NCBI RefSeq assembly: GCF_000484535.1 | Contig: NC_022600.1 | Span: 2,790,001 to 2,854,000, forward strand | DNA: 64,000 bases | Origin: Gloeobacter kilaueensis JS1 | GTDB lineage: Bacteria; Cyanobacteriota; Cyanobacteriia; Gloeobacterales; Gloeobacteraceae | Reading direction: 5' to 3' | The notes under the pieces: model-generated | Database searches by the model: none | The model's input: only the letters and a program-made list of their open reading frames with translations | Told to the model about the DNA's origin: nothing | Shown: one piece after another, positions 24,547-40,230 of the stretch | How positions within the stretch are numbered: position 1 is the stretch's first letter | How the letters are laid out: each line of letters begins with the position of its first letter | Position numbers and translations under genes: made by a program

Positions 24547-25200
24547 TCAATTGCCAAAGTATCTAAAGGCAAAAGTCTTGCTTTGCTTTTCGTGGTAAGT
24601 GTAATCGCTCTTGCTCAGTGTGATGTTGAGTGGTCCGCTCGAATGCTCGACCAGCTCGTTACTGTTGGGTTGCATGTAGGATTTTACAGACATAGCCAGA
24701 GATAACTTATATTTGCTGCTCGGAAGCAAATTACACAGCCGAGCAATGGTCGTTTCCGTATAAGCAGCAAAAAGTGGAAAAATCCGCCGATCGGTGATCA
24801 TTGGTGAGATATCCAGATAAATAAGTGTCGCATCCATCCAGCTTGGATCTCTTTTGAACAGTGATCGAAAGCTGTCACCATCTGCCAGCACATCCTGAAT
24901 ATTACCTGTAATTGGATCCCTACCATTACCGAACACATAGAGATTTGGATCAACTGCCAGCAGTTCTTTTATTGGCCTATCAAAGTAAGCAATACCGTAA
25001 ATGTTATCTCTTGAGGTAAATTCAGTGGTCAGGGCAGCAGGATCGACACTCCTCGAATCGAGGGGCTTTTTAGAAAAAATGATCTTCCGGGCATAGGTCG
25101 GGTTGATGGGCGAATTTTGTGCGCCAACAATTTTTGGCACAAAGACAAACGATAATAAAGAACTACCGAGCAGTACGCTGCGCCGATTGATCATACCCAA
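24547..25200 (-). CDS. Exported protein of unknown family (paralogue B)
   Basis: 217 residues from a TTG at 25200, chosen by analogy with the paralogue (both then begin M-G-M-I-N-R-R) and a GGGGG run about 9 bases upstream; an ATG at 25194 is the alternative. The N-terminus INRRSVLLGSSLLSFVFVPKIVGA is a Tat-like or Sec signal peptide. The mature part (about 190 residues) shares DPAALTTEFTS-IYG, FTSRDNIYGIAYFD, a DATLIYLDISP segment and GPLNITLSKSDYTYHEKQ with its neighbour. No cysteine pattern or known domain is recognised. The DNA is visibly AT-richer than the genome average in this window. It is the last gene of the CIS-like series. Confidence 0.7.
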   Translation of the reverse strand: MGMINRRSVLLGSSLLSFVFVPKIVGAQNSPINPTYARKIIFSKKPLDSRSVDPAALTTEFTSRDNIYGIAYFDRPIKELLAVDPNLYVFGNGRDPITGNIQDVLADGDSFRSLFKRDPSWMDATLIYLDISPMITDRRIFPLFAAYTETTIARLCNLLPSSKYKLSLAMSVKSYMQPNSNELVEHSSGPLNITLSKSDYTYHEKQSKTFAFRYFGN

Positions 25201-25229
25201 TGACAATTACCCCCACAAACTACTTCTGC

Positions 25230-25898
25230 TCAACTATCACCATAGTATCTGTTATAGTAAATCTGCTGTTGTCGCTTGTGATAGCCAAAGTCACTCTTGC
25301 TCAGGACAATATTGAGTGGACCTTTAGCCTGGACGTTAGTTTTTCCAGAAAAGGCTCCAGCAAGTGATTCGACAGTGGTAGATAACGACAGTTTGTATTT
25401 AGCTCCTTCAGCCACATAATGACAAAAACTCATGAGGAAATTCTCTGAGTAACTAGCAAAAAGTGGATAAATCTTCTGGTCGGATGGATCAGGCGATACA
25501 TCCAAGTAGAGGACAGTTGCATCTCTCCATTCTGGCTGTCTTCTCAACAACTCTGTAAAACTGTTGCCATCATCTACAAGCGTTCGTACAGTCTGCTGTT
25601 TCAATGCTGGGTCATTCCCAACAGCTCTAAAGTACATAACATAGGCGTCAGGCGGCGTCATATCTTTTATCTGTTTATCAAAGAAGGCAACACCGTAGAT
25701 GCTGTCTTTTGAGGTGAAATTGGTGGCCAGGGCAGCAGGATTGACACTCTTTGGATCGATTGGCTGTTTGGAGTAGATAATTTTGCCTGCATAGGTCGTA
25801 TTGATGCGTGCTTCCTCAGCACCAACAATCCTGGGCACAAAGGCAAGTGGCAGTAAGGAACTGCCCAGCAATATATTACGCCGATTAATCATCCCCAT
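25230..25898 (-). CDS. Exported protein of unknown family (paralogue A)
   Basis: 222 residues, ATG at 25898 preceded by GGAGG at 7 bases. A signal peptide INRRNILLGSSLLPLAFVPRIVGA is followed by a mature part parallel to paralogue B: NPAALATNFTSKDSIYGVAFFD, then DATVLYLDVSPDPSDQKIYP and GPLNIVLSKSDFGYHKRQQ, ending in a Tyr-rich YYNRYYGDS. The pair arose by tandem duplication followed by strong divergence. The position 31 bases after the VgrG-like spike gene is where effectors or their partners often lie, but nothing in the sequence proves such a role. Confidence 0.72.
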   Translation of the reverse strand: MGMINRRNILLGSSLLPLAFVPRIVGAEEARINTTYAGKIIYSKQPIDPKSVNPAALATNFTSKDSIYGVAFFDKQIKDMTPPDAYVMYFRAVGNDPALKQQTVRTLVDDGNSFTELLRRQPEWRDATVLYLDVSPDPSDQKIYPLFASYSENFLMSFCHYVAEGAKYKLSLSTTVESLAGAFSGKTNVQAKGPLNIVLSKSDFGYHKRQQQIYYNRYYGDS

Positions 25899-25929: not shown

Positions 25930-27678
25930 CTAATTAATGCTTATCTGTGCTCCCTGGATCGTCATTGGTCCAGAAGAGCTGACACTCATGTTTCCAGAGG
26001 CGTTGATTGTCGTTGAACCCTGAGAATTAATGTTCAGTTCTCCTGTCGAGTGGATTTCAATGCTGCCATCTTGATCGTTGAGCTTGATGTAGTGGCCGCC
26101 GGGTGTCTTGATGTTGATGAACTCGTCTGTCTCGTTCATCTCAATCATGAACATCTTCTTGGTCCGCAGGTAGATGCCCACTTTGTCTGGTGAGGTATCT
26201 TCATCGACCATGCGCATGTAGTGGCCGACTCGCGTCTTCATTGTGCGTAGATGCACTGGAGTAACACTGTCGTCCTGCTTGTCCGGTGGCTTGTCCTTGC
26301 CATTCCAGACACCGCCGACGACATAAGGACGATGAATATCACCGTGCTCGAAACAGACCAACACTTCATCGTTGACTTCTGGCAGCCACCAGATGCCATG
26401 CTCCGGCCCAGCGCCGGGACCGACTACCCGTGCCCAGTTGCTCTCGTGTTCTTCGGTCAAAGTTGGAAACTTGACTTTGATTCGACCCATGCCTTCAGGG
26501 TCTTTGTTGTTGGTGACGATTCCTACAAGATTTGTCTGACCAGGCTTGAGCTTGGGTTGCGACCCAAGGTTGCTCATCATGTTACCGCCACGGGTTCCCC
26601 GAACGCTGAACTCCGTGGTGTAAACATTGTCGTGGTAGAAGTGCCGAGCGTCAGTGACGTAGTACTTGCCACTGTGCTGATCGCCCATTTGAGTCAGATT
26701 GACTATCTTACCCGGTCGAACCGTTGGCTCACCTTCACAACGGGCATCGGCGTAGACACCTTCACCCCCCATCTCGTCGCAGACGGCCTGTGCCATGATG
26801 TCTGCTTCTTCAGGACTGAAGACGGGGTGATCGACGACTGTCAGCTTGGCATTGGTACCAAAAGGCTCATCTGCCTTCCCAGCAATCGTGTAACCAGTTT
26901 GCGTAACTAGCTGGGGTGCCTCCGCTGTTCCAACAATTGCCTTCTTCTCCTTGTAATCCCAGCTACGGACCTCGACGGATTTTACCTGCTCTGCAGCGGT
27001 CATTCGCGTTCTAAAAGATTGAAGTCGTTTGCCCCACTGCAGCAAGGTATCCGCTTCACCGTCGCTCTTGGGCTTGTGGAAATGCACCTTACTATCTTGA
27101 ACGTATAGCTCAAAGCCGATTCGAGATGCGCGATCCCTAAGAAACGCCATGTTTGTCTGGTTTTCTTGAAAAACATAGTCATGGGGAGCGCCGCTGTCTT
27201 CGATCTCTCCTGCCTGTAAACCCACCTCACCGATGATCTTGCGAACGATGTCAGAGTCCGTCATGTTGATGAAGGAGCGGTTATAGCGTCCGCGATGCAG
27301 GCGGTGAGACATGTCGTAGCCGCGCAGGACGACAGGAGCAGAAGGATCTTCAGTGTAGTGAGCTTCAATACCAGTGATTTCGCCTTCCAGCAAAGCAGGA
27401 TTCTCTGTTTGTTTGCTAAATTCGCCAGCCATAGTCGTGGTGGAGCGAAAGCCAAATTTGATCTTCGCGCCAACCTTCAAGGCTGGATGGCTCAGCCAAT
27501 GATGTTTATCCTTCACATCGCCCGGCGTAAATGGATTGTGCAGGATGATCGTGAAAGCATCAGGCAAGTTCAAACTTTCTTCGACACAAATCTGCTGGAT
27601 ATCTCGAACAAGGAACTCATTCTCTTCGCCTTCGACGCCCTCAATCTTGACATTGGGCCTTGAATTATAGTTTTGCAT
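25930..27678 (-). CDS. VgrG/gp27-gp5-like spike protein of a contractile injection system
   Basis: 582 residues. The N-terminal gp27-like part (about 1-330) includes the LRGYDMSHRLHRGRYNRSFINM and SDIVRKIIGEVGL signatures of phage late-control D/VgrG hubs. A gp5 OB domain begins at about 386 (LVGIVTNNKDPEGMGRIKVKFP) with GIWWLPEVNDEVLVCFEHGD and PYVVGGVWNGKDKPP. The C-terminus is a short beta-helix (GGHYIKLNDQDGSIEIHSTG, then repeated Ser/Asn pairs). This is the fused spike (Afp8/Pvc8 type) that caps the inner tube. There is no C-terminal effector extension. The DNA is AT-richer than neighbouring genes. Confidence 0.9.
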   Translation of the reverse strand: MQNYNSRPNVKIEGVEGEENEFLVRDIQQICVEESLNLPDAFTIILHNPFTPGDVKDKHHWLSHPALKVGAKIKFGFRSTTTMAGEFSKQTENPALLEGEITGIEAHYTEDPSAPVVLRGYDMSHRLHRGRYNRSFINMTDSDIVRKIIGEVGLQAGEIEDSGAPHDYVFQENQTNMAFLRDRASRIGFELYVQDSKVHFHKPKSDGEADTLLQWGKRLQSFRTRMTAAEQVKSVEVRSWDYKEKKAIVGTAEAPQLVTQTGYTIAGKADEPFGTNAKLTVVDHPVFSPEEADIMAQAVCDEMGGEGVYADARCEGEPTVRPGKIVNLTQMGDQHSGKYYVTDARHFYHDNVYTTEFSVRGTRGGNMMSNLGSQPKLKPGQTNLVGIVTNNKDPEGMGRIKVKFPTLTEEHESNWARVVGPGAGPEHGIWWLPEVNDEVLVCFEHGDIHRPYVVGGVWNGKDKPPDKQDDSVTPVHLRTMKTRVGHYMRMVDEDTSPDKVGIYLRTKKMFMIEMNETDEFINIKTPGGHYIKLNDQDGSIEIHSTGELNINSQGSTTINASGNMSVSSSGPMTIQGAQISIN

Positions 27679-27756: not shown

Positions 27757-28302
27757 TCAACCTTGACGACCTCGCGAGTCGGCTGTTCGGTTTGCTGGTC
27801 CCGCATTACTTTGTTGAGAGCCTGCTGCTACTTTCTCCACTTCTTGTAATTTTAGAGAGACCATTGCTCGACACGGATCGCCATTAGGGAGAAACATTGT
27901 GTAGTTGAAGGTGAGACTGGTCACAACGCAGCGCAGGGAAATGCTGTTCCCCAATTGAAGCATGTACACAAAAGGGCGCTTGCGCTGAATAAAGGCACCA
28001 TCACCACTTGCCGATGCATCACTGACTGAATTTGGTGTGACAGCCGCTTTCAGCGCATCGATGTAAGACTGGCAGGAGGTCCGCGACTCGTAGGTGTCGA
28101 TGAGCATGTTGTTGATCGTCACTTCGTAAGGCTTGACACCCTTGTAGTCTGTACTTGGCAGAGTGTCACTGTCACCGATCGAGCCTTTATTTTCCTTCCA
28201 TTCCACGGTGCGGGTAAAGGAAATGGCGGAGGGATTGTACATGAAAGTAATGGGGGAGCCGCCCTCTGCTACGGCTAGCTGAGCTTTTACAAGGGTCGTC
28301 AT
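27757..28302 (-). CDS. CIS tube/hub adaptor protein (Afp7/Pvc7-like)
   Basis: 181 residues. The N-terminal FMYNPSAISFTRTVEWKENKG matches the CIS-tube family start (F-x-[FY]-N-P-x-x-x-x-x-x-R), and GVKPYEVTINNMLIDTYESR and RPFVYMLQLGN, then LRCVVTSLTFNYTMFLPNGDPCRAMVSLKL, follow the pattern of hub-joining proteins that lie before the VgrG spike in extracellular CIS loci. In Afp7-like proteins a LysM domain often follows; here the protein ends soon after (NRTADSRGRQG), so LysM is absent. It lies between the giant repeat protein and the spike gene. Confidence 0.78.
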   Translation of the reverse strand: MTTLVKAQLAVAEGGSPITFMYNPSAISFTRTVEWKENKGSIGDSDTLPSTDYKGVKPYEVTINNMLIDTYESRTSCQSYIDALKAAVTPNSVSDASASGDGAFIQRKRPFVYMLQLGNSISLRCVVTSLTFNYTMFLPNGDPCRAMVSLKLQEVEKVAAGSQQSNAGPANRTADSRGRQG

Positions 28303-28340: not shown

Positions 28341-31300
28341 TTACCAGAGTCCGCGACCATGATAGTTAAAGCCTTCTTTGCGCTCACGCTCGATCTCGAT
28401 GCGGTGGCGCAACATGCTGTAGACCTCGCGGGCCAGAGTTTCGAGATCGGCAGGATCGAGGGCTTCTTCCATTTTGTCGTCGAGTTGTTGCTGGGCGAGG
28501 GCAGACGGATCGACGCCTGAGGGCGTTTCGGTTCCTGGTCCACCGGCACTTTCGAGTTCCGGAGGCAATTCTCCGTCGCCCGATTCGATGGCATCCATTG
28601 AATCGCCCATGTAGCCGCCGATGGGAGCGCGGCCTGTATCGCTGTCGCTGCCCATCGAGAAGCCACCGCCGCCGCCACCACCGCCGTCGTCCGGGGCTGC
28701 GTCTGCCTCTCCCATCAGATGTTCGATGCTCGACCAGCTGTCGGGTGTTTGCAGGGCGGCACCGCTACCGGTCGCAACACCGTCGTCGCCGTCCAGCATC
28801 GCACCGCCGAAGGGCGAAGCAAATTGCAGCGGGACTGACATCGCGTCACTGAAGGCTGCCGGTTCACCGGCCACCACCGCCAGATCGAAGCTCTCGGGCA
28901 ACTGATCGAAGCCGTCCATATCGCCGAAGGGCTGATCGGCACCGTCCGGAGCGAAACCAGTCGTATCGCCTCCGAAGCCGAGGGGACCAGAATCGATGCC
29001 TGTCATGAGCAGGGGAGCAAAGTCCGCCGCTCCTTCGCCTGCTGCCATCAGCGAGGGGTCTTCGATGCCGTCGCCGACGAAGACCAGCGGTGCGAGGGCT
29101 TGTGTGGCGGCGAGGGTTTCCTGGGCAAGGGGCAGCGTGTCTCCAAGCAGGCTCTCCGACTGGCCGAACGCCTGCAACTGCTCGAAATCGAGCCCCAGCG
29201 ACTCGCCTGCTTCCATGCCGAGGGGCAGGATGCCATCGGTGAGGCCAAGTGGTTCAGGCGCGCCGAGCAAGCCCACCGGGCCGAGGGTAGGCATCCCCGG
29301 TACGGCGGGAGACACTTCTGCATCGGTTGGGGCGAAAGTGTCCGGAACACTGGGGCTGGACGAATAGACCAGGGGGCTGAATTCAGCAGCCGCAGCAAGG
29401 AAGGGAACGTCTTCGCCGGGGACGCCGGTCGTCGGGAGTGCCGGCTCGAAATCGACAGGAGCAATGGCCTGTTCAAAATCGGTAGGATAGGGGGCCAGAG
29501 CCTGCTCTTCACCTGGGGCGAAGGCACGGGCTACCGGCTCAACTCCGAGCGCTCCAGTGGCCCCACCCGTCTCCTCGGAAATAGCGCCTTCCGCTCCCGC
29601 TGCCAGAACAAGCGGGCTGAATTGGGCGAGGCTTGCCGCCTGCACCTCGCTGTCGCCCAGGGCCAGATCGGATGCAGCTTCAGCCGTGAGCGGACGGAGA
29701 ACCGATAGATCCTGGGCGACGGTCGGAGAGATGGCTCCAGCATCTGCAAAGATGTCAGCCGGCAACAGTGGCTCAGCGCCAAGGGGAGTGAAACTGGCCT
29801 CACCCAGGCCCAGCTCTGGAACGGGCGGCTGGGATTCAGCGGCTGTTACGGTTGTCGGACCATAGTCCACCGTACCCGGAACACCGGCGGATACTTGCTG
29901 CCCTTCACCGGGGACAATCGCCTCGTCAACTCCCGGCGCATAGGTAAGCGGTGCGAGTGCCCCGTAGCCGGCAGTCTCGGTTCCAGTGTCAGAAGCTTGA
30001 TCGAGAAGACCGGCTGCAGGACCGAGGGGACTGATGACCGATAGATTCTGCAGGGCAGAGAGGGAAGTGTCCTGCGGTTGCTGGGCTGCTCCCAGGGCAT
30101 CCACTCCCTCCAGTTGCCCTGCTTCACCCAGGCGGGCAACACTTCCGAGAGGAGTGGCCGCTTCGGAGGCAAAGTGCGCTTCGAGCGGCAAGAAACCTTC
30201 CTGCCCGGCGGGCAGTTCGCCGACTTCACCGGTAGTCGGCTGGGGTTGCTCGCTGAGTGGTTGCGGCGCATCGCGCAATGGCAAGTCGTCCGGCGGTTCT
30301 GCTCCAATCGGCTCCGGAGCGTCATGCAGGACTACCGGCTGCTCGCGTACCAGCTCATCCGGTCCAGTTGGACTGTCTTCTACTTCCAGCTGTTGCTGCA
30401 AAGGTTCGACGACTCGCTCCAGTCCGTCGCGATATTCGCCCGGCTCCAGCGGTGTCTCTGGCTGTCTGCGCCCCCGGCCTGTGTCAACAGCGCTGACCGC
30501 ATCATCGAACGCTTCTTGCAGATCTTCGAGGCGCGCTTCAGCAGAAAGCGGTTCGGGGGCGGGAATCAGCTCCGGCTCTGCTTCTTGCTGTTCGGAGACA
30601 GGCTCCGGCGCGGGGATGAGCGATGGTTCTGTTTCCTGGGCTTCTGGCTCTTGTTGTTCGGAAACTGGCTCTGGAGCTGGAATGAGCGATGGTTCCGCTT
30701 CTTGCTGTTCTGAGACAAGTTCAGCAGCCGGAATCAGTTGCGGCGCTTGCTCTTCCGGCAATTCTGCTACCGGTGTTCCATCAGCCTGGGCGAGGATTGG
30801 CTCAGTTTCAGTGGCAGTTGGCTGTGTTTCTGGCTCATCCTGAGCTGTCAGGGCCATCTGGGGCAACGCACCACCCTCGGCAGCGAATTGCTCTTCTAAG
30901 GGCAGGTAGCCTTCTTCCTCGACGGCAGGCTCTACAGCGGGAGTCTCTGCTAAGGCTTCATCCGCAGGCGCTTCAGCTGTTGGTTGCTGTTCAGAAAGCG
31001 GCTGGGGCGCATCGTGTAGCTCGACCTCACCTGCTGGCTCCTCCTCACCAACCGGCTCCGGAGCATCATGCAGAACTATCGGCTGCTCCTGCACCAGCTC
31101 ATCCGGTCCAGTCGGACTGCCTTCTGCTTCCAGCTGTCTTTCCAGCGGCTCGACCACCCGCTCCAGTCCGTCGCGATATTCGCCTGGCTCCAGCGGCGTC
31201 TCTGGCTGTCTGCGCCCCCGGCCCGTGTCAACGGCGCTGACCGCATCGCCAAACGCTTCCTGCAGATCTTCGAGGCGTGCTTCAGCAGAAACAGGCTCTG

Positions 31301-34300
31301 GTTCCTGTTCTTCTTGTTGCTCGGAAACAGGCTCCGGCGCGGGGATGAGCGATGGTTCTATTTCCTGGGCTTCTTGCTCAGCCAGTGGCTGGTCAGCAGG
31401 AAGCAGTTGCGGAACTTCGCCCTCTGATGGCTCTACTCCTTCTGTGCCGTCAGTCTGCGCGAGGACCGGTTCGACTTCAGCAGTTGGCTGTGTCTCTTCT
31501 TCGTCCTGAGCGGGAAGCGCCATCTGGGGCAGCGCACCACCCTCGGCAGCAAACTGCTCTTCTAAAGGCAGGAAGTCCTCAATCTGCGTTGCTGGCTCGA
31601 CTTCGGATAGCGGAGTCGGCAGTTCTCCATCCGGTTGCGTTTCTGGAGCAACAGTTTCAGCTTCGGATTGAGAATCGAGTGGTTCTTGAGGAAGCTCCAG
31701 CGGTGCTTGCGGCTCGCCAGGTACCTGCTCGGTCGTTTCGGGCAGAATAGCTGTGTCAGCAGCAGCAAACTGCTCTTCTAATGGCAGATAGCCTTCATCC
31801 GCAGGCGCTTCAGCTGTTGGTTGCTGTTCAGAAAGTGGTTGGGGCGCATCGTGTAGCTCGACCTCACCTGCTGGTTCTTCGCCGATCGGTTCCGGTGCGT
31901 CGTGCAGATGCTGGGCTACCGGTTGCTCCCGTACCAGTTCATCCGGTCCAGTTGGACTGCCTTCTACTTCCAGCTGTTGCTGCAAAGGCTCGACGACTCG
32001 CTCCAGGCCGTCGCGATATTCGCCCGGTTCCAGCGGTGTCTCTGGTTGTCTGCCACCTCGACCGGTGTCAACGGCGCTGACTGCATCATCGAACGCTTCT
32101 TGCAGATCTTCGAGGCGCGCTTCAGCAGAAAGCGGTTCGGGGGCGGGAATTAGCTCCGGCTCTGCTTCTTGCTGTTCGGAGACAGGTTCTGGAGCCGGGA
32201 TGAGCGATGGTTCTGTTTCAGATTCTTGTTGTTCCCGCTCAGAAATCGCTTCCGGCGCAGGGATGAGCTGTGGGGCTTGCTCTTCCGGTAATTCTGCTAC
32301 CGGCGTCTCATCGGCTTGGGCAATGCCTGGCTCAGTTTCAGTGGCAGTTGGCTGTGTTTCTGGCTCATCCTGCGCCGTCAGGGCCATCTGGGGCAACGCA
32401 CCACCCTCGGCAGCGAATTGCTCTTCTAAGGGCAGGTAGCCTTCCTCATCAGCGGCAGGCTCTACTGCGGAGGTTTCTGCTAAAGATTCTTCTGCAGATG
32501 ACTCAGAAACGACTGGTTCCGCTGTATCGCGCTGCTCTTCACCGATCGGTTCCGGTGCGTCGTGCAGATGCTGCTGGGCTACCGGTTGCTCGCGCACCAA
32601 CTCGTCCGGTCCAGTCGGACTATCCTCATCCTCTAGCTGTTGCTGCAAAGGTTCAACGACTCGCTCCAGTCCGTCGCGATATTCGCCCGGCTCCAGGGGT
32701 GTCTCTGGCTGTCTGCGTCCCCGGCCCGTGTCAACGGCGCTGACCGCATCATCGAACGCTTCCTGCAAATCCTCAAGGCGCGCTTCAGCAGAAACAGGCT
32801 CTGGTTCCGAAACAAGAGGAGGCTCTGGTTCCTGTTCTTCCTGCTCGGAGATGGGTTCTGGAGCCGGGATGAGCGGTGGTTCGGTTTCCTGGGTTTCTGG
32901 CTCTTGTTGTTCAGAAACTGGCTCTGGAGCTGGAATTAGCTCTGGCTCTGCTCCTTGCTGTTCTGAGACAGGTTCAGCAGCTGGGATGAGCGATGGTTCT
33001 GTCTCTTGCTGCGAAACAGGTTCAGCAGCCGGAATCAGTTGCGGCGTTTCTTCTTCCGGCAATTCTGCTACCGGTGTTCCATCAGCCTGGGCGGCGATTG
33101 ACTCAGTTTCAGCAGTTGGCAGCGTCTCTTCTTCGTCCTGAGTGGGAAGCGCCATCTGGGGCAGCGCACCACCTTCGGCAGCAAACTGCTCTTCTAAAGG
33201 CAGGTAGCCTTCTTCTGAAGCCAGTCTTCCAACCGGTGTCTCCGCTGGAAGTTCCTCTGCAGATGGCTGAGACAGATCTGTAAGTGGTTCTGGTGCGTCG
33301 TGCAGATGCTGGGCTACCGGTTGCTCCCGTACCAGTTCATCCGGTCCAGTTGGACTGCCCTCTACTTCCAGCTGTTGCTGTAAAGGCTCGACGACTCGCT
33401 CCAGCCCGTCGCGATATTCGCCCGGTTCCAGGGGCGTCTCTGGCTGTCTGCCACCTCGACCGGTGTCAACGGCGCTGACCGCATCGCCAAACGCTTCCTG
33501 CAGATCTTCGAGGCGCGCTTCAGCAGAAACAGGCTCCGGTGCCGGAATCAGGGACGGCTCTGGTACCGGTTGCTCGGAAACCGGTTCCGGCGCGGGGATG
33601 AGCGGCGGTTCCGCTGTTGCCGCTGCGTCGGAGGTGAAGGCTGATTGTGCCTCCTCGGTTTCTGGCTGCCCTTCCTCGGCCAGGATGGAGGCTGGTTCTG
33701 AAAACGTTTGTGCTGCGAGAACAGCGTCTGGTTCTGGGGATGCAGCGGCGAATATCTCGGTCCGCTCGTCCGGCTGGGTTGGGGATAGACCCGTACTCTC
33801 AGGGTCTGTCCGCTCCTGTGTCTCTATTGGGGAAGTGGGCGGCTCGACCAGCCCTTCGCGGGCAAATTGGGCTTCGAGCGGGACAAAATCCGACTGCTCC
33901 TGTCCAACGGGAGCAGTCGCCAGAGAAGGGCTCTCGGCGGTGTAAGAAGCTGTGTCCGAACTGGGCAGACCGTCCGGTTGCACCTGTTCAAACTGGGCTA
34001 TGGGCTGATGCAGGGTTTCTTCGTCCCCCGGCTCCATTGGCTGCAGCGATTCCTCGGAGCGCGCTTCGCTCTGCGAGACAAATTGCGGCTCCTGTCCTGT
34101 GGATTCTGGCTCAAGATAGGCCGGGACCGTCGTGGTTTCGGAGAAGGGTTCCAGTGCCGGTGTTTGCGCTTCTACCCGGGAGAAGCCGGATTGCTGGCCG
34201 CTTTCAGAAACAACTTCAGGCGGGCTTGCCGCCGTCTGCTCCGCTTCGGTTGCCGCTTCTGAAGTCGCAAAGGGCAAATCGGGGTGCTCTGCCTGAGTAG

Positions 34301-36551
34301 AAGAGGCGGCAGCAGATTCTGCAGGATCGAAAAAGGACGCTTCCTGCGCGGTCTCCTGGGCAGGAGCACCGGTAAAAGTTGTCGCCGATTCGTCTGCGAG
34401 GGGCGGCTGGAGAGTCTGGGGTGGGACTGGTGCCTGGAACGATTCATCCGGGAGCTGCTGAGCAGCCTGGGGTACATCGGCTTCGCGTGCGGCATCCACC
34501 GCCTGGGCCTGGGCGCTTTCAGCCTGCGCCTGGGGAAAAGCGGGCGACAGGCCAGGTGCTGCCGGGCTTTCCTCCATGAACTGCTCTTCGAGCGAAGCAA
34601 ATTCGGAGGCAGGAACGGACGGCAATCCGGTCGATTCTCCTGGGGTGGCCGCTGCTCCTTGAAGGTCGGATTGCGGGGGCTGGGGAGTGAATGCGGGTTC
34701 TGGCAGCTCGCCGGCGCTCGCTGCCTGATCGGGAGCGGTTGTAAAAGCATCGGGAGCCAGTAGAGGCTCAGGTGCATTCCGCAGTTCCTGCTCAACGATG
34801 GCTTCGTCTAGAGCAGATGGCCCCTCGCCAGCGCCTGAAACCGCTTCTTGTTCCGCCTCCGGTAGCGTCTCCAGCTCGGATCTCTCGGGCTCGGCCTGCT
34901 GCAGGGGGTCTAACGTCGGTTCGAGCGGCTGCGGTTCGGCGACTGGCCACTCATCGAACCGCCCAGTTTCTTCTGGATCGACAAGCGGTTCCTCAGCCGT
35001 CTGTGCGGGCAATTCTGCCTCAGCAAAGCTGTCGTCTGTGAACGGAACAGATGGGCTGTCTTCCTCCAGAGGAGCGGGCTGCAATTGTTGCGCTAGTTCG
35101 TCCGGCTGGCCGGTCGATTCGGTAGCAGTGCTTTCAAGGCCCGCTGTCAGCGGATCGCCGCTCGTGCTACCGAGATCGGCGGCAATCTGCTCACTAGCCT
35201 CCGGAAGCGATGCGGGCTGTTCTGGCGCACTTTGCAGCTGCGGCAGGGATTCGCCAACAACTGCTTCCGGCTGGGCGACCGCTGGTTGTTCGGCGGCAAC
35301 CGGTTGCGGAGCCGATTCGGTGGGCTGGGGGAGGCTGGTTCCCGTATCCGCTGGTCTGCTCAGCCGCTCCTGCGCTTCGAGGCCCGCCAGAGCCGCCAGA
35401 TCTGCGCCGACAGGCGGCACTGGGCTGGTGGCCGCTGAACGCGCCTGGGTCTGGGAGCTGGCAGGCGGTTGGGCACTGTCAAGACCTGCCCGTCTATCGG
35501 TGGCGGGACGGCTGGGCGCTTCTTGGGCGAACTGTTCTTCGAGGGAAGCAAAGCTGGATGTGGCTTCAGAAAGATTTGCGGAGGATGCGACGTTTTGTTC
35601 AGCCGGGATCGATTCGACCGGCAGTGCTGAATCGGCGAGCGGCGGCAGCGCTTCCCTGGCCAGCAAGTTCGGATCGGCGAGGGTGCCGGTGACATCGGCA
35701 GGAATCGAGGGAGCCGTACTCTCCGCAACCGGCGTCGTGGACGCTTCGGGGTAGGAGGGGGCCGGGGCCGTAACTCCACTCTCGGCAAAGAGCTGCTCGG
35801 ATGACGGCAGAGAACCGGACACAGAGTCAGCCGATGACTCAGGCGAGGAAAAACCTTCTCGCTCGCCCTGGCCGTCGGGATCAGATTCTTCAAGTTCGCC
35901 GGTCGCTTGCGACGCATCGTCCGCGAAGCGAGATTCGTCTTCTGCCACCTCAGCGGCATCGAGCGGACTTTCAGCCTCCAGCTCCGTTTCGAGAGGCGCG
36001 GAGGACTCTGCTGCCTCCTGTTCCAGTTCTTGAAGCTCCTGCTCCTCCGCCTCCCCCGGCGGACCATCTTCGGCGAAGTGCTCTTCGAGGGACAGCGGGG
36101 CGTCAGCCGGGTCTTCTTCTCTACTGAGAATCTGTTGCTGTTCGTCCGGCAACTCGCGCCCTTCGTCGAGGCGCAGGGGATTGTCGAGATCGTCGTCCAG
36201 CTGCCGCCTTCTTTCTTCTGGCTGCCGGTCGCGGTTGTTGCGCGGAGTTGCCTCGGCTGCCATCGCCTCCTCCAGACTCAGCTCGCCTGGATCGAGTCTG
36301 GGCTGCGGTTCTACGACCGGCTCCTGGGGCGCAAAGAAAAAGGGCGATTCTTGAAAGGGATTGACCGGCGGCTCGTAGCCGGGCAGTCCCTCCGGGAAAA
36401 AAGCCAGCGGATCGACGGCGGTCAGGGGCTCGGCTGCCGCCGGTGCCAGAAATGGCTGGGGTAGCAGGATGTCCTGACCGAGGGGCGGGAGCGGTCGCCT
36501 CAAATCGGCTTCACCAAGGGGGGGCACACCGGAGGGCAGCTGGGGTTCCAT
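28341..36551 (-). CDS. Giant 2736-residue acidic Pro/Glu/Gln/Ala-rich repeat protein
   Basis: A single uninterrupted frame, start ATG at 36551, two bases after the stop of the tube gene. No signal peptide and no membrane helix. Residues 1-110 are Pro-rich. Up to about 2250 the chain is acidic and low in order-promoting residues, with five long repeats starting ARLEDLQEAF at about 1010, 1255, 1480, 1755 and 2005, ten copies of a LE[EA][QH]FA motif, and many IPAPEPVSEQ units. Residues 2250-2620 hold eight [FLI]-x-PL motifs. A Gly8 run (about 2620) and a C-terminal helix (ETLAREVYSMLRHRIEIE) close the protein. It is unlike coiled-coil tape measures. It probably acts as a disordered scaffold or tether of the CIS-like particle; the function is inference. 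Confidence 0.85.
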   Translation of the reverse strand: MEPQLPSGVPPLGEADLRRPLPPLGQDILLPQPFLAPAAAEPLTAVDPLAFFPEGLPGYEPPVNPFQESPFFFAPQEPVVEPQPRLDPGELSLEEAMAAEATPRNNRDRQPEERRRQLDDDLDNPLRLDEGRELPDEQQQILSREEDPADAPLSLEEHFAEDGPPGEAEEQELQELEQEAAESSAPLETELEAESPLDAAEVAEDESRFADDASQATGELEESDPDGQGEREGFSSPESSADSVSGSLPSSEQLFAESGVTAPAPSYPEASTTPVAESTAPSIPADVTGTLADPNLLAREALPPLADSALPVESIPAEQNVASSANLSEATSSFASLEEQFAQEAPSRPATDRRAGLDSAQPPASSQTQARSAATSPVPPVGADLAALAGLEAQERLSRPADTGTSLPQPTESAPQPVAAEQPAVAQPEAVVGESLPQLQSAPEQPASLPEASEQIAADLGSTSGDPLTAGLESTATESTGQPDELAQQLQPAPLEEDSPSVPFTDDSFAEAELPAQTAEEPLVDPEETGRFDEWPVAEPQPLEPTLDPLQQAEPERSELETLPEAEQEAVSGAGEGPSALDEAIVEQELRNAPEPLLAPDAFTTAPDQAASAGELPEPAFTPQPPQSDLQGAAATPGESTGLPSVPASEFASLEEQFMEESPAAPGLSPAFPQAQAESAQAQAVDAAREADVPQAAQQLPDESFQAPVPPQTLQPPLADESATTFTGAPAQETAQEASFFDPAESAAASSTQAEHPDLPFATSEAATEAEQTAASPPEVVSESGQQSGFSRVEAQTPALEPFSETTTVPAYLEPESTGQEPQFVSQSEARSEESLQPMEPGDEETLHQPIAQFEQVQPDGLPSSDTASYTAESPSLATAPVGQEQSDFVPLEAQFAREGLVEPPTSPIETQERTDPESTGLSPTQPDERTEIFAAASPEPDAVLAAQTFSEPASILAEEGQPETEEAQSAFTSDAAATAEPPLIPAPEPVSEQPVPEPSLIPAPEPVSAEARLEDLQEAFGDAVSAVDTGRGGRQPETPLEPGEYRDGLERVVEPLQQQLEVEGSPTGPDELVREQPVAQHLHDAPEPLTDLSQPSAEELPAETPVGRLASEEGYLPLEEQFAAEGGALPQMALPTQDEEETLPTAETESIAAQADGTPVAELPEEETPQLIPAAEPVSQQETEPSLIPAAEPVSEQQGAEPELIPAPEPVSEQQEPETQETEPPLIPAPEPISEQEEQEPEPPLVSEPEPVSAEARLEDLQEAFDDAVSAVDTGRGRRQPETPLEPGEYRDGLERVVEPLQQQLEDEDSPTGPDELVREQPVAQQHLHDAPEPIGEEQRDTAEPVVSESSAEESLAETSAVEPAADEEGYLPLEEQFAAEGGALPQMALTAQDEPETQPTATETEPGIAQADETPVAELPEEQAPQLIPAPEAISEREQQESETEPSLIPAPEPVSEQQEAEPELIPAPEPLSAEARLEDLQEAFDDAVSAVDTGRGGRQPETPLEPGEYRDGLERVVEPLQQQLEVEGSPTGPDELVREQPVAQHLHDAPEPIGEEPAGEVELHDAPQPLSEQQPTAEAPADEGYLPLEEQFAAADTAILPETTEQVPGEPQAPLELPQEPLDSQSEAETVAPETQPDGELPTPLSEVEPATQIEDFLPLEEQFAAEGGALPQMALPAQDEEETQPTAEVEPVLAQTDGTEGVEPSEGEVPQLLPADQPLAEQEAQEIEPSLIPAPEPVSEQQEEQEPEPVSAEARLEDLQEAFGDAVSAVDTGRGRRQPETPLEPGEYRDGLERVVEPLERQLEAEGSPTGPDELVQEQPIVLHDAPEPVGEEEPAGEVELHDAPQPLSEQQPTAEAPADEALAETPAVEPAVEEEGYLPLEEQFAAEGGALPQMALTAQDEPETQPTATETEPILAQADGTPVAELPEEQAPQLIPAAELVSEQQEAEPSLIPAPEPVSEQQEPEAQETEPSLIPAPEPVSEQQEAEPELIPAPEPLSAEARLEDLQEAFDDAVSAVDTGRGRRQPETPLEPGEYRDGLERVVEPLQQQLEVEDSPTGPDELVREQPVVLHDAPEPIGAEPPDDLPLRDAPQPLSEQPQPTTGEVGELPAGQEGFLPLEAHFASEAATPLGSVARLGEAGQLEGVDALGAAQQPQDTSLSALQNLSVISPLGPAAGLLDQASDTGTETAGYGALAPLTYAPGVDEAIVPGEGQQVSAGVPGTVDYGPTTVTAAESQPPVPELGLGEASFTPLGAEPLLPADIFADAGAISPTVAQDLSVLRPLTAEAASDLALGDSEVQAASLAQFSPLVLAAGAEGAISEETGGATGALGVEPVARAFAPGEEQALAPYPTDFEQAIAPVDFEPALPTTGVPGEDVPFLAAAAEFSPLVYSSSPSVPDTFAPTDAEVSPAVPGMPTLGPVGLLGAPEPLGLTDGILPLGMEAGESLGLDFEQLQAFGQSESLLGDTLPLAQETLAATQALAPLVFVGDGIEDPSLMAAGEGAADFAPLLMTGIDSGPLGFGGDTTGFAPDGADQPFGDMDGFDQLPESFDLAVVAGEPAAFSDAMSVPLQFASPFGGAMLDGDDGVATGSGAALQTPDSWSSIEHLMGEADAAPDDGGGGGGGGFSMGSDSDTGRAPIGGYMGDSMDAIESGDGELPPELESAGGPGTETPSGVDPSALAQQQLDDKMEEALDPADLETLAREVYSMLRHRIEIERERKEGFNYHGRGLW
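30300..33540 (-). repeat. Five long repeats within the giant protein gene
   Basis: Five copies of a sequence encoding ARLEDLQEAF[GD]DAVSAVDTG, then RQPETPLEPGEYRDGL and SPTGPDELV, lie near 30505, 31255, 32090, 32757 and 33490, separated by roughly 670-840 bases of shorter IPAPEPVSEQ and LPLEEQFAAEGG units. The copies are nearly identical in protein and largely so in DNA. This is an expanded modular region. Confidence 0.88.
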
Positions 36552-36553
36552 GA

Positions 36554-37084
36554 CTAATTACTGCTGAAATAGCCGCTCGCATCGCGCGTAAGGCCCATCA
36601 TCGCACCGCCGCCGCCGCTTTTTTGGACGCGCAGTCCTTCGTAGGAGATCACTACCTGCTCGATCGCTGCCGTCGATGTCTTGTCGGGCAGGTTGGCCAT
36701 CAGCTGCGGCCCCTTAAAACCGGTGACCACTGCGCCGATGAGCGTCCAGCACTGCATCGTGTCGCCCGCCGGATTGAAGACGACGATATTGACGTTGCGC
36801 CGGGTGGTGGGCCGGGCCGGGTCGATCGAAGACCAGGCCCAATCCCAGAAGACAAGACTGTCGGTGATGCCGCGCTGCAGGGTGACATCGCTGAAGGTCA
36901 CCGGCCCGAGGTAGATGCGCTCCTGTTCGTTGACGCCGCCCTCGTTGTAGGAGTTTTTCTTCATCGTGAAGCCGAGACCGCTGCACTGCATGAAAGAGGC
37001 AGTCAGCTCACTATCGATCTCGACGTAAAAGCGGTTGGGTAGGACGTAATTGAGTTCGTGGATGACGTTGCCGTTTTGAGACAT
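36554..37084 (-). CDS. Phage-tail-like inner tube protein (gp19/Afp1/Pvc1 family)
   Basis: 176 residues. LPNRFYVEIDSELTASFMQCSGLGF at the N-terminus, then EQERIYLGPVTFSDVTLQRGITDSLVFWDW and the RRNVNIVVFNPAGDTMQCWTL block are characteristic of the T4 gp19-type tube family used by extracellular and thylakoid-anchored contractile injection systems. It would assemble as hexameric rings. The ATG overlaps the stop of the small helical gene (ATGA), and the giant gene follows by 2 bases, so the three are translated together. Only one tube gene is in the window. Confidence 0.9.
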   Translation of the reverse strand: MSQNGNVIHELNYVLPNRFYVEIDSELTASFMQCSGLGFTMKKNSYNEGGVNEQERIYLGPVTFSDVTLQRGITDSLVFWDWAWSSIDPARPTTRRNVNIVVFNPAGDTMQCWTLIGAVVTGFKGPQLMANLPDKTSTAAIEQVVISYEGLRVQKSGGGGAMMGLTRDASGYFSSN

Positions 37085-37359
37085 CAGAAGTGCCCACCGT
37101 AATCTCGTGATCGTTCGTGGTGGTTGCGCAGATCGTCGCGCATCAGATCGTGGATGCGGTCGGTCAACCGACGCATCATCAGGTGATTTTTGAGCACTTT
37201 GCCCGCCTGCATCAGCATGGCAAGCTGGGCGCGCTTGCGCGCCTGCAGATCGGCCCCTGCCCCAGAACCGGCGACGGAGTTGGATGGACCGACGGGAATC
37301 TGGACGGGCGAAGAGTAAAAACTGGTTTGAATTTGCGGTCTTTTGGAGGTAGAACTCAT
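37084..37359 (-). CDS. Small helical protein of the CIS-like operon
   Basis: 91 residues from the ATG at 37359 (a TTG at 37371 adds four residues). The first 40 residues are Ser/Gly/Pro-rich and disordered; the remainder (ARKRAQLAMLMQAGKVLKNH, then LTDRIHDLMRDDLRNHHERS) is helical, ending in DYGGHF. The last helix aligns with the C-terminal helix of the giant protein (L-x3-[IV]-[HY]-x-[LM]2-R-x2-[LI]-x4-ER), which suggests a common docking partner. No named family recognised. Overlaps the tube gene start by 4 bases. Confidence 0.65.
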   Translation of the reverse strand: MSSTSKRPQIQTSFYSSPVQIPVGPSNSVAGSGAGADLQARKRAQLAMLMQAGKVLKNHLMMRRLTDRIHDLMRDDLRNHHERSRDYGGHF

Positions 37360-37460: not shown

Positions 37461-38120
37461 TCAGGCGATGGCGACGGTGAACTGTACCAGGTTGTCCTTG
37501 CCCAACTGCAGCGCGTCGCCATCGACGAGTTGATAGGGCACACCGGGGGTGAGCGGCTGAGCGTTGATGAACGTGCCGTTGCGGCTGTTGCTGTCGATGA
37601 TCGTGTAGGTCGCGTAGGTCGCATCCCAGTAGATGCGGGCGTGGGGCCGCGAGATCACCTGATCGTTGGGCAGGCCCGTCAGGTCGATCTCAGGTGCCGG
37701 TTTGACCGTTCCCCCGCGCCTGCCGATGTAGCTCTCCTCGCCGCGCAGCGGAAATTCGCGGTTGCTGGGCGAATGGATGAGTTTGAGCGAAGGCCGCCCT
37801 GGGGCTGCAGCCGGAGCGCTGGGCCGGGCCGGTACCTGCGGCTGCTGGGGCTGGTAGGCGGGCGGAGCGGATTGATAGACCGGCGGAGAGGGCTGATAGA
37901 CCGGTGGAGCCTGCTGGTAGGCGGGGGCAGACTGAAAAGCTGGAGTCTGCTGAAAGGCGGGCGGGGCAACCGGAGGCGGAGCAGCGGGTGTACTGGCTGC
38001 ACTGCTGCCGCGCACGACGTTTCCCAGGGGTGTGCCGCACATCGGACAGACTTGAGCGGTGTTGGGCAGCGTCCGGTTGAAGTATTCGCACTGGGGGTTT
38101 GGACACTTGGGAGCAGCCAT
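37461..38120 (-). CDS. Zinc-ribbon/FHA domain protein
   Basis: 219 residues from the ATG at 38120. A zinc ribbon at 5-31 (CPNPQC and CPMCG), a disordered middle rich in Pro, Tyr, Gln (PPVYQ and AFQ repeats, about 40-115), and an FHA domain at 120-219 with the phosphothreonine-binding residues in place (SYIGRRGG, then ISRPHARI and SRNGTFIN). It reads Thr phosphorylation in the cytosol. It begins 10 bases after the pseudokinase-PBP gene and precedes the tube gene group by about 100 bases, analogous to Fha proteins in type VI secretion loci. Confidence 0.87.
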   Translation of the reverse strand: MAAPKCPNPQCEYFNRTLPNTAQVCPMCGTPLGNVVRGSSAASTPAAPPPVAPPAFQQTPAFQSAPAYQQAPPVYQPSPPVYQSAPPAYQPQQPQVPARPSAPAAAPGRPSLKLIHSPSNREFPLRGEESYIGRRGGTVKPAPEIDLTGLPNDQVISRPHARIYWDATYATYTIIDSNSRNGTFINAQPLTPGVPYQLVDGDALQLGKDNLVQFTVAIA

Positions 38121-38130
38121 TGCGGTTCCG

Positions 38131-40230
38131 TTATTTGTTGGACAGAGGTAGAGGAACAACACCTAATTTCTCAAGATACTGCTGACCCTGGCGAGTGGTC
38201 AGCAATTCGGCGAACTTGAGACCAGAAGTAGGGCGACTGTTGTCTTTAGGGTAGACAACAGCGAGCGGGAAGCTGAGCGGGTAGCGCCGCTGGGTAAAGG
38301 CATCGGCGTCGGCGTAGTAGTCCTTGTCGCCGCAGAGGTTGACGCCGGGGTTGATCGGCTGGCCGCGATAGACCGGGTCGTTTTGTAGATAAGGCTGTAC
38401 CGCACCGCTGCCCGCATCGATGGCGAGCGGATAGCCCGAGCACTGCTTGTACGCCTTAAACAGGGTGCTGAAGCTGATGATCCCTGAGCGGCCCCGCTCC
38501 AGTTCGTCCTTTGCCAGAATTTGCGTCTCGCGGGTGGGCAGGACCGTGGCGGTGCTCTTGAAAGTGGCGATCTTTTGGGGATCGTTGGCGAGCACCAGAC
38601 GCTCGAACATGCGGACAGCCTCGGGCTCGGTGGGCGCGTAGGGCTTGATCGGCAGATCCGGACCGCCCAGATCCTTCCAGTTGGTGATCTGACCGGTGTA
38701 GATCTTTTGCAGGTTGTCCATGCTGATCTGGCCGCCCAGAGCAATGTGCAGCCCTGGACGCTTCAAGAAGGCGACGTAGATCACCAGACCGTCGTAGGCG
38801 ATGGGCTTTGCTTCGAGGTCGTCGCTCAGATCGTCGATCAAGCTGGTGATTGCAAAGTCGGACTTGATGAGCTGCACCAACCGGACAGGCTGGCTCTGTT
38901 CGTCGATGTTGGCTGAGACCACCGGCGTGTACTGCATCTGCACCTTGGTGCGCGGCTGGGTGAGAATATCCGCCAGCTGCTGATCGTTGGTGGGTTTGCC
39001 CTGCATCAGGTAACTCCAGGTGCCGTTGCGCTCGGCCACGTAGCTGAAGTTGCCCTCCGGCACGCCGCTCACATCTTCAAAACCTGGAACGCGGGTATCG
39101 ACCGGCGTCGGTTTGGGGAACCAGCGGTCGCGGTTGGGCCAGAAGATAAACAAAAAGCCCAACAGCATCAGCACGATCAGCACGGCGAGCAGAACAAAAA
39201 GCTTGATGTTGGCCTTGTCTTTTTTGTCCTGTTCGACCAGACCGGTGGTGACGACCGCCTGCTCTTCGCCCGGCAGCTTAAAAAGAGCCGCCCGCGCCGA
39301 ATCTGCCGAATCGAAGGGCATATCGAAGCCCATCAGCCGATAAAGGTACTCCTGCAACCTTGGCTCGACAGTGGGCCACTGGCTTGGATCTCGCGGGTCG
39401 AGGTACTGGCCGGTAACCGGATCGTTCGTCTGACCGGCCAATAGATAAAACGCCACCGAACCGAGGGCAGTCAGATCTTGCTGGGGCAGCGGGTCTTCGA
39501 GGCTGCGCATCGAGGGCGGATCAAAAAGCCGCTCCCAGAGTGCCAGATCGCAGACGTAGATAAAGAACTGCTGCTCAGCCGCGTTCTCGGCGATGAGCAA
39601 ACTGTCGAGCGATAGATTGCCGTGGGCCATGCCCTGCTGCACCTGGCCGGAGGGAAAACGGAATTTTTGACTGTGCAGAAACTGCAGCGTCTGCAGCACC
39701 TGGTTGAGCACCGAGCGGACCTGCAGCGCACTCATCGCCCCGTTGTCGCTCAGATAGCCTGCCAGGGTTGGACTCGCTTCGAGCGCACTCCTGGTGATGA
39801 GGTAGCAGCGCTCCCCCTGCTGATCGGCGACCGCCTCCCAGGGACTGACCAGACGAAAGTCCTGATTTTTGCCGTCTGCCGGTGTCAGGCCCGCCACCCG
39901 CATAAAGGCATCCTTGCGCTGGCGCGTCTCCTCTTTGTTGAAGCAGCGGCCCGGCAGCAGGTACTCCTTGACGACGCAGGGCTGATTGCTTCCCGCCTGG
40001 GTCGCCTGGTACAGTCGTCCCATCCCTCTGGTGCCCAGCAGGCTCTCGATGCGATAGGTGCCCCGCGTTCCCCGAATTTCCGACTTTTCCAACAGCATCG
40101 TCGGAAAGCCGCATTCCTGGCAGAACCGGGCTCCCGGCACCTGCTGCACAGTCTGCAACAGCACGTCGCAGCTGAGCGGCATGTTGCGCGAACAGCGGTA
40201 TTCCTTGTACAAAGTTTCAAACAACTGCAC
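38131..40230 (-). CDS. Pseudokinase-TM-phosphate-binding-protein-like fusion
   Basis: 699 residues from a GTG at 40230, with AGGAG 7 bases upstream. A Cys pair (FCQECGFP, about 36-43) is followed by a Ser/Thr kinase-like domain (about 58-330): glycine loop LLGTRGMGRLYQA and Lys in PCVVKEYLL are kept, but the catalytic loop is HGNLSLDSLL instead of HRDxKxxN and DFG reads DLA, so catalysis is unlikely. One membrane helix (LFVLLAVLIVLMLLGFLFIFW, about 344-364). Residues 390-699 resemble PstS-type solute-binding proteins (IYTGQITNWKDLGG). It looks like a transmembrane sensor linking an outside ligand to a cytosolic pseudokinase. Confidence 0.83.
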   Translation of the reverse strand: MQLFETLYKEYRCSRNMPLSCDVLLQTVQQVPGARFCQECGFPTMLLEKSEIRGTRGTYRIESLLGTRGMGRLYQATQAGSNQPCVVKEYLLPGRCFNKEETRQRKDAFMRVAGLTPADGKNQDFRLVSPWEAVADQQGERCYLITRSALEASPTLAGYLSDNGAMSALQVRSVLNQVLQTLQFLHSQKFRFPSGQVQQGMAHGNLSLDSLLIAENAAEQQFFIYVCDLALWERLFDPPSMRSLEDPLPQQDLTALGSVAFYLLAGQTNDPVTGQYLDPRDPSQWPTVEPRLQEYLYRLMGFDMPFDSADSARAALFKLPGEEQAVVTTGLVEQDKKDKANIKLFVLLAVLIVLMLLGFLFIFWPNRDRWFPKPTPVDTRVPGFEDVSGVPEGNFSYVAERNGTWSYLMQGKPTNDQQLADILTQPRTKVQMQYTPVVSANIDEQSQPVRLVQLIKSDFAITSLIDDLSDDLEAKPIAYDGLVIYVAFLKRPGLHIALGGQISMDNLQKIYTGQITNWKDLGGPDLPIKPYAPTEPEAVRMFERLVLANDPQKIATFKSTATVLPTRETQILAKDELERGRSGIISFSTLFKAYKQCSGYPLAIDAGSGAVQPYLQNDPVYRGQPINPGVNLCGDKDYYADADAFTQRRYPLSFPLAVVYPKDNSRPTSGLKFAELLTTRQGQQYLEKLGVVPLPLSNK

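Follow-up and report, generated by a model that had tools for sequence, protein, structure and literature searches.

A giant acidic repeat protein encoded between tube and spike genes of a Gloeobacter kilaueensis CIS, a candidate tape-measure-type protein of predicted disorder

A single frame of 2,736 codons lies between tube and spike genes in a CIS operon of Gloeobacter kilaueensis JS1, and it raises the question of what a protein of this size could do in such a particle. The window analysed was a stretch of 64,000 nucleotides, bases 2,790,001-2,854,000 of the complete genome of 4,724,791 bases. In a preliminary description of this DNA the gene product, here called P0001, was regarded as an acidic modular repeat protein, either a flexible scaffold, a membrane tether, a cargo holder or a length-setting element. 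The frame was found as described. It starts with ATG two bases after the stop of the tube gene and runs without interruption on the minus strand, and the plus strand of the same region is full of stops. The objection that such a frame may not be translated was also addressed. Pairwise dN/dS between the five repeat cores was 0.03-0.10 (dS 0.26-0.92), and three congeners carried unbroken frames of 2,500, 3,239, and 3,277 aa at the same locus; we therefore consider the frame translated. The low ratios in the repeat cores are strong sequence-based evidence of translation, as well as of selection on a core of approximately 85 aa.

The operon order on the minus strand is kinase-like/PBP, FHA, a gene for a 91-aa protein, gp19-like tube, P0001, CIS_tube, and VgrG-related spike (Table 1). 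The tube-to-spike setting proposed earlier was refined: the neighbouring tube protein scored higher with the NCBIfam model of the initiator Cis5 (64.7 bits) than with that of the tube protein Cis1 (36.9 bits). The Cis7-like CIS_tube protein consists of 181 aa and appears to be without the C-terminal LysM-like part that Cis7 has in DUF5908-type loci. The C-terminal helix of the 91-aa protein, whose gene the preliminary description had left out, is homologous to the helix of P0001 (hhalign probability 95.4%, E 1.7e-8), and a gene of this kind precedes the tube gene in many of the cyanobacterial CIS loci with enough flanking sequence. One guess is that the 91-aa protein binds the initiator ring on its other face. 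Immediately behind the spike gene lie genes for two paralogous proteins of about 220 aa with signal-peptide-like starts (24547-25206 and 25230-25898, minus strand), neither of which had a family match above cut-off.

Table 1. Features of the P0001 operon and of P0001 itself, in window positions.
Feature	Position	Strand	Evidence
VgrG-related spike/hub	25930..27678	-	NF033848, 360.8 bits, above cut-off
CIS_tube protein, Cis7-like	27757..28302	-	PF19266, E 2e-16
P0001, 2,736-aa protein	28341..36551	-	ORF and translation, repeat dN/dS, syntenic long frames in congeners
Conserved C-terminal helix and tail, aa 2700-2736, proposed spike anchor	28344..28454	-	C-terminal profile, AF2 pLDDT >90
Gly8 run, aa 2623-2630	28662..28685	-	translation
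PDSWSSIEHLM motif, aa 2603-2613	28713..28745	-	profile from other members, i-E 0.0017
Repeat copy 5, partial, aa 1997-2140	30132..30563	-	
Ten LE[EA][QH]F[AM] short motifs, aa 155-2127	30171..36089	-	counted against shuffles
Repeat copy 4, aa 1749-1996	30564..31307	-	
Repeat copy 3, aa 1469-1748	31308..32147	-	also AF2-modelled
Repeat copy 2, aa 1248-1468	32148..32810	-	
Repeat copy 1, aa 1003-1247	32811..33545	-	
Conserved N-terminal segment, aa 1-117 (PLG...PLGQ...)	36201..36551	-	N-terminal profile match, congener identity
gp19-like tube protein, Cis5-like (tube initiator)	36554..37084	-	PF06841, TIGR02241, NCBIfam CIS5
91-aa protein, stop overlaps tube ATG	37084..37359	-	helix homologous to that of P0001
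FHA-domain protein, upstream in operon	37461..38162	-	PF00498
PBP-like-domain protein, weak kinase match	38131..40230	-	PF12849, 8e-12; PF00069, 0.004 (17 bits, below the Pfam cut-off of 31.7)

Sheath, cap-like, and further tube genes were located near 3.515 Mb of the genome and the baseplate J gene at 2.8995 Mb, all away from P0001. The further CIS loci examined in this genome offered no second tape-measure candidate, the DUF5908 plug gene (PF19265) had no match in it, and no DUF4157 protein was found over cut-off. Besides the kinase-like/PBP and FHA genes before the tube (37461-40230, minus strand), genes for a PP2C phosphatase and a zinc-ribbon FHA protein lie downstream of the baseplate J gene (L172:4868-7220, minus strand), and the sheath gene has a kinase gene beside it (L008:13073-13951, minus strand). 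The kinase/FHA/PP2C set resembles the threonine-phosphorylation control of type VI secretion. At L010:8775-11236 (minus strand) a lone tube paralogue with an extended C-terminus precedes two further genes, one for an adaptor-like protein with DUF4123 and one for a 257-aa protein of unknown family, and these genes are a candidate effector cassette.

P0001 has a mass of 286 kDa, a pI of 4.05, no cysteine and a net charge per residue of -0.18, with 418 Glu and 162 Asp vs. 77 Arg and 2 Lys. The composition rich in Pro, Glu, Gln, and Ala that had been reported was confirmed (E 15.3%, A 13.7%, P 13.5%, L 9.4%, Q 7.7%, S 7.0%), and so were the glycine run, the C-terminal helix, and the five long repeats, in which SAEARLEDLQEAF begins at aa 1009, 1254, 1475, 1755, and 2003, i.e., at a spacing of 221-280 aa. 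The core of about 85 aa is nearly identical in all five units, with few residue differences. When repeat copy 3 was modelled by AF2, a helical hairpin was obtained at unit residues 8-61 (pLDDT block means about 67-86) and the remaining approximately 200 residues were disordered, mostly with pLDDT below 60; the input comprised five near-identical sequences, which makes this prediction a weak one. The model of the last 150 residues, built from 61 aligned sequences, was disordered with pLDDT mostly below 60, save for three helices: one of 28 residues at aa 2700-2727 (pLDDT up to >90), a weaker one preceding it, and a short one at WSSIEHLM. By a charge-hydropathy estimate the full-length chain falls among disordered proteins, and the pieces that were folded showed no predicted coiled coil, in agreement with the earlier impression. 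P0001 is predicted to be mostly disordered, with the C-terminal helix and a small hairpin per repeat as the parts that fold.

The chain also carries short motifs. The pattern LE[EDAQ][QHRE]F occurred 10 times in P0001, while 0.11 were expected and no more than two were present in any of 1,000 shuffles; from aa 654 onward the motifs are mostly about 220-250 aa apart. Six to seven copies were counted in each of three congeners, though the middles of these proteins are unalignable to P0001. A stricter DNA pattern, LE[EDA]QF[AST], had seven sites genome-wide, all of them inside the P0001 gene. Docking motifs common to the repeats and to DUF4157 effectors were considered and dropped, there being no such effector above cut-off and the motif being confined to P0001 in this genome.

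Acidic repeats rich in Pro and Glu are common in many surface proteins, and we considered that P0001 could be an external tether, an adhesin or a baseplate accessory outside the tube. Baseplate and fibre protein extensions are known to anchor Anabaena CISs to thylakoids (PMC8894136). However, readings of P0001 as an adhesin or as a protein with a signal peptide or TM segment were unsupported by family searches and hydropathy. The best 19-residue Kyte-Doolittle mean was 1.19, the N-terminus as read from the sequence has no signal-peptide-like hydrophobic core, as the preliminary description had also noticed, and no adhesin family matched. In addition, the gene is always placed between two tube-type genes, and relatives of P0001 carry a tape-measure segment (see below). 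We regard a position outside the tube as very improbable.

P0001 is not unique, it belongs to a widespread and very length-variable cyanobacterial family. Members were collected in two ways. Firstly, 386 cyanobacterial genomes were searched with the CIS_tube neighbour, of which 25 matched; secondly, GTDB contigs were scanned with a VgrG profile, and of the 227 relatives obtained the best 80 loci were used. This gathered 97 loci where a gene with the C-terminal helix abuts CIS_tube. The order tube, P0001-type gene, CIS_tube, and VgrG-like spike is kept in 57 complete loci, about 53 of them distinct since a few were counted twice from the two collections, and the family proteins in these loci range from 187 to 3,277 aa, a few having only 187-325 aa. 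The C-terminal helix has the consensus LAxEIYxxLRQRLEIERERxG, and a second common motif, of the WSSIxELL type, was present in 90 of the 97 members. A single-sequence phmmer search with the last 110 aa of P0001 was enough to detect the helix in 17 flanking genes from the first 20 loci, with E-values mostly between 1e-3 and 1e-11. An N-terminal profile made from other cyanobacteria, P0001 excluded, matched P0001 with 34.5 bits (E 1e-8). This match was absent or marginal in many Nostoc members, and the N-terminus of the family appears conserved only in part. In one locus (L057:5123-8192, minus strand) the disordered part (919 aa) and the C-terminal helix part (91 aa) occur as two separate frames.

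Congeners could be aligned to P0001 only over aa 6-117 and the last approximately 180 residues, with 47-49% identity in the N-terminal segment (aa 1-117). The dN/dS values were about 0.15-0.37 at the ends of the family proteins and 0.52-0.57 in the middle, and 0.02-0.06 for VgrG and CIS_tube. The family proteins thus have constrained ends and, between them, a predicted disordered middle that evolves fast. A search of freely available article texts turned up no earlier description of this cyanobacterial family.

Searches with P0001 itself gave no match in Pfam, NCBIfam or PDB and no detectable tape-measure homology in Pfam, NCBIfam, PHROG or phage searches. The whole protein against PDB and phages and its C-terminal 120 aa against phages returned nothing, and the profile of the C-terminal helix had only weak non-CIS matches in PDB. 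Two PHROG matches, to a connector family (0.003) and to an unknown family, were rejected as composition noise with no passing stretch. The orthologues gave another picture. About half of the members, from Nostocales, carry a tape-measure segment of about 60 residues, GYATGG...PAMLTPGEFVIN, which was found in 46 of the 97 (38 by pattern and 8 by profile) and reads GYATGG...SDTVPAMLTPGEFVIN... in Nostoc members. A tblastn search with 70 residues against 50,697 phage records retrieved tape measure proteins of Nodularia phages (1e-15, 55% identity), and among 60 matches sampled across the ranking 55 were annotated as tape measure, four as endolysin, and one as minor tail. PHROG scans of three Nostoc members ranked the tape-measure family first, with marginal E-values of 0.002-0.01. 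The GYATGG-type segment is absent from P0001. A match to a known tape-measure family, which the preliminary description had named as a refuting result, was found in orthologues but not in P0001; sequence comparison shows tape-measure homology for proteins that are orthologous by locus and ends, not for P0001 itself. No relatives of the P0001 helix or of the VgrG were confirmed in IMG/VR viral contigs, so there is no sign of a prophage tail.

The length of the family proteins was compared with their relatedness. In pairs with VgrG identity of 0.7-0.8 the median length ratio was 0.90, with only 34% of the chain alignable, vs. 0.72 for random pairs. Length kept better than sequence is the pattern that a ruler would show, and shared ancestry also contributes to it. 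The proteins of loci L157 and L158, where the VgrGs are 99% identical, have 3,277 and 2,500 aa (24% different), and family protein length can evidently move quickly, with repeat collapse as a possible cause of the shorter figure since L158 is a MAG. P0001 would span 410 nm if helical and about 850 nm if extended, as computed. For CISs of other phyla, in-cell lengths of 217 nm (Roseiflexus), 238 nm (C. chliarophilus), and 365 nm (Deinococcus aquatilis) are on record (PMC12998442), figures which do not decide the matter.

We consider P0001 most likely to be the tape-measure-type protein of this cyanobacterial CIS, resident in the tube, anchored to the spike, and disordered instead of coiled-coil, and give this reading a probability of roughly 0.55; from the locus and the family we infer the location in the lumen, the trimer, the binding to the spike, and any control of length. 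The C-terminal helix would dock, probably as a trimer, in the cavity that the VgrG/CIS_tube spike complex opens toward the tube, which is the site of the Cis6/Alg6 plug or of the C-terminus of phage tape measures. The rest of the chain, long, acidic and for the most part disordered, would be punctuated by small helical hairpins and by short motifs at intervals. It would extend along the lumen as the rings of the tube polymerise about it, with the N-terminus meeting the distal end. P0001 would in this way nucleate tube assembly, keep the lumen occupied and bound the tube length, and it would leave with the tube on firing. Counted in favour were the conserved slot, which is also that of Cis6, the segments in orthologues, the C-terminal helix, the constrained ends, the length kept at VgrG identity of 0.7-0.8, and the lack of another candidate in the CIS loci examined and of a DUF5908 plug gene in this genome. 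Counted against were the lack of detectable tape-measure homology in P0001 itself, the missing coiled coil in the pieces folded, the quick change of length seen between L157 and L158, and the lack of detectable homology between the helix and DUF5908; moreover, members of 187-325 aa are short for a ruler of an ordinary tube, and the reported negative charge of CIS lumens (PMC8894136) sits badly with an acidic chain. Among the earlier options, gene position, C-terminal helix, and orthologue segments favour the flexible scaffold or length-setting element, whereas the membrane tether found no support.

A more speculative version, which we put forward tentatively, is that of a disordered tape measure fused to a spike plug and acting as an entropic or motif-counted ruler. 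The motifs, placed about every 230 residues, would register the tube, and repeat number would retune the length of the machine between species. The family bears on how tube length is set in CISs without an Afp14-type tape measure, as reported for the clusters of S. coelicolor and S. venezuelae (PMC10066040). It offers a natural length series at one conserved locus, including the pair with near-identical spikes, by which length control, lumen occupation, and plug function become directly testable.

Known systems of three kinds were compared with P0001. Cis6 of the Anabaena tCIS and of AlgoCIS is a trimeric plug of the spike cavity with 50-52 aa, built of an N-strand, a flexible linker and a C-helix, and is essential for AlgoCIS assembly (PMC8894136, PMC8894135). 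In the three DUF5908 loci examined the plug gene lies between Cis5-like and Cis7-like genes. Cis6, Alg6, and Afp6 (DUF5908) share with P0001 this place between tube initiator and Cis7, as well as the plan of N-terminal element, flexible linker, and C-terminal helix, but have 50-60 aa against the 187-3,277 aa of the P0001 family. P0001 could be pictured as a giant spike plug, with both ends in the spike as in Alg6 and a middle of about 2,600 residues, an overgrown counterpart of the Alg6 loop, that fills or lubricates the lumen entropically, length not being set. The loop of Alg6, 10 residues long (19-28), is disordered (PMC8894135), in Anabaena the lumen is entered by a flexible loop of Cis6 (PMC8894136), the wide length range of the family suits a filler, and three fully packed P0001 chains would fill about 83 nm of an assumed 4-nm bore. 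On the other hand, the P0001 helix had no profile similarity to DUF5908 (hhalign probability below 1%), Nostocales orthologues contain tape-measure segments, and length is better kept than sequence at intermediate distances. We hold this explanation to be improbable. Two of the cyanobacterial genomes searched, G091 and G193, each have both a DUF5908 locus and a P0001-type locus.

The second kind is represented by Tme of the Streptomyces davawensis CIS, a large, tape-measure-related protein with about 70% disorder, whose gene lies immediately before those of the baseplate and which associates with the tube initiator and the spike (PMC11126660), and by Sle1 of the Streptomyces lividans SLP, a packaged tape-measure-related effector (PMC13277306). 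P0001 is likewise a large, largely disordered protein from a long ORF upstream of baseplate genes, and like Sle1 its family is related to tape measures. These cases, together with the fast evolution of the family middle, speak for P0001 as tape-measure-derived cargo, i.e., an effector or effector carrier loaded in the lumen and delivered on firing, with length set otherwise. However, neither the DUF4157, TM, and coiled-coil segments of Tme nor its C-terminal nuclease, nor any other enzymatic or toxin domain, was found in P0001, where the C-terminus is a conserved helix. Sle1 has a coiled coil and a TM hairpin and is encoded next to the sheath. Delivery as cargo is unlikely in our opinion, and the tape-measure-type reading is preferred. 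Given Tme, the Cis6/Alg6 slot and the presence of the family in dozens of cyanobacterial CIS loci, the earlier remark that no described CIS component of this type was known needs amending.

Phage and tailocin tape measures are the third kind. The diffocin genes are numbered tape measure CD1366, tube tail CD1367, hub CD1368, and spike CD1369; the tape measure is a trimer with its C-termini on the spike and its N-termini at the collar, and 20-35 C-terminal residues were resolved as trimers for the tape measures of 80alpha and T5 (PMC11329794). As in diffocin and in Nodularia and Gordonia phages, the P0001 gene stands just before tube-end and hub/spike genes, after a tube gene, it is the largest of the set, and its product has a C-terminal helix. 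P0001 differs from the phage proteins in lacking the segment and any hydrophobic segments and in its predicted disorder with Pro/Glu repeats; the long alpha-helical or coiled-coil body common, not universal, in tape measures was not seen in the pieces of it that were folded. By position the P0001 family fits Cis6, the diffocin tape measure, and Tme alike, and at the level of sequence it connects only to tape measures, by way of the Nostocales members alone. The family also suggests a common identity for the spike plug of CISs and the tape measure of phages, both being variants of a hub-seated helix whose tail lies in the lumen.
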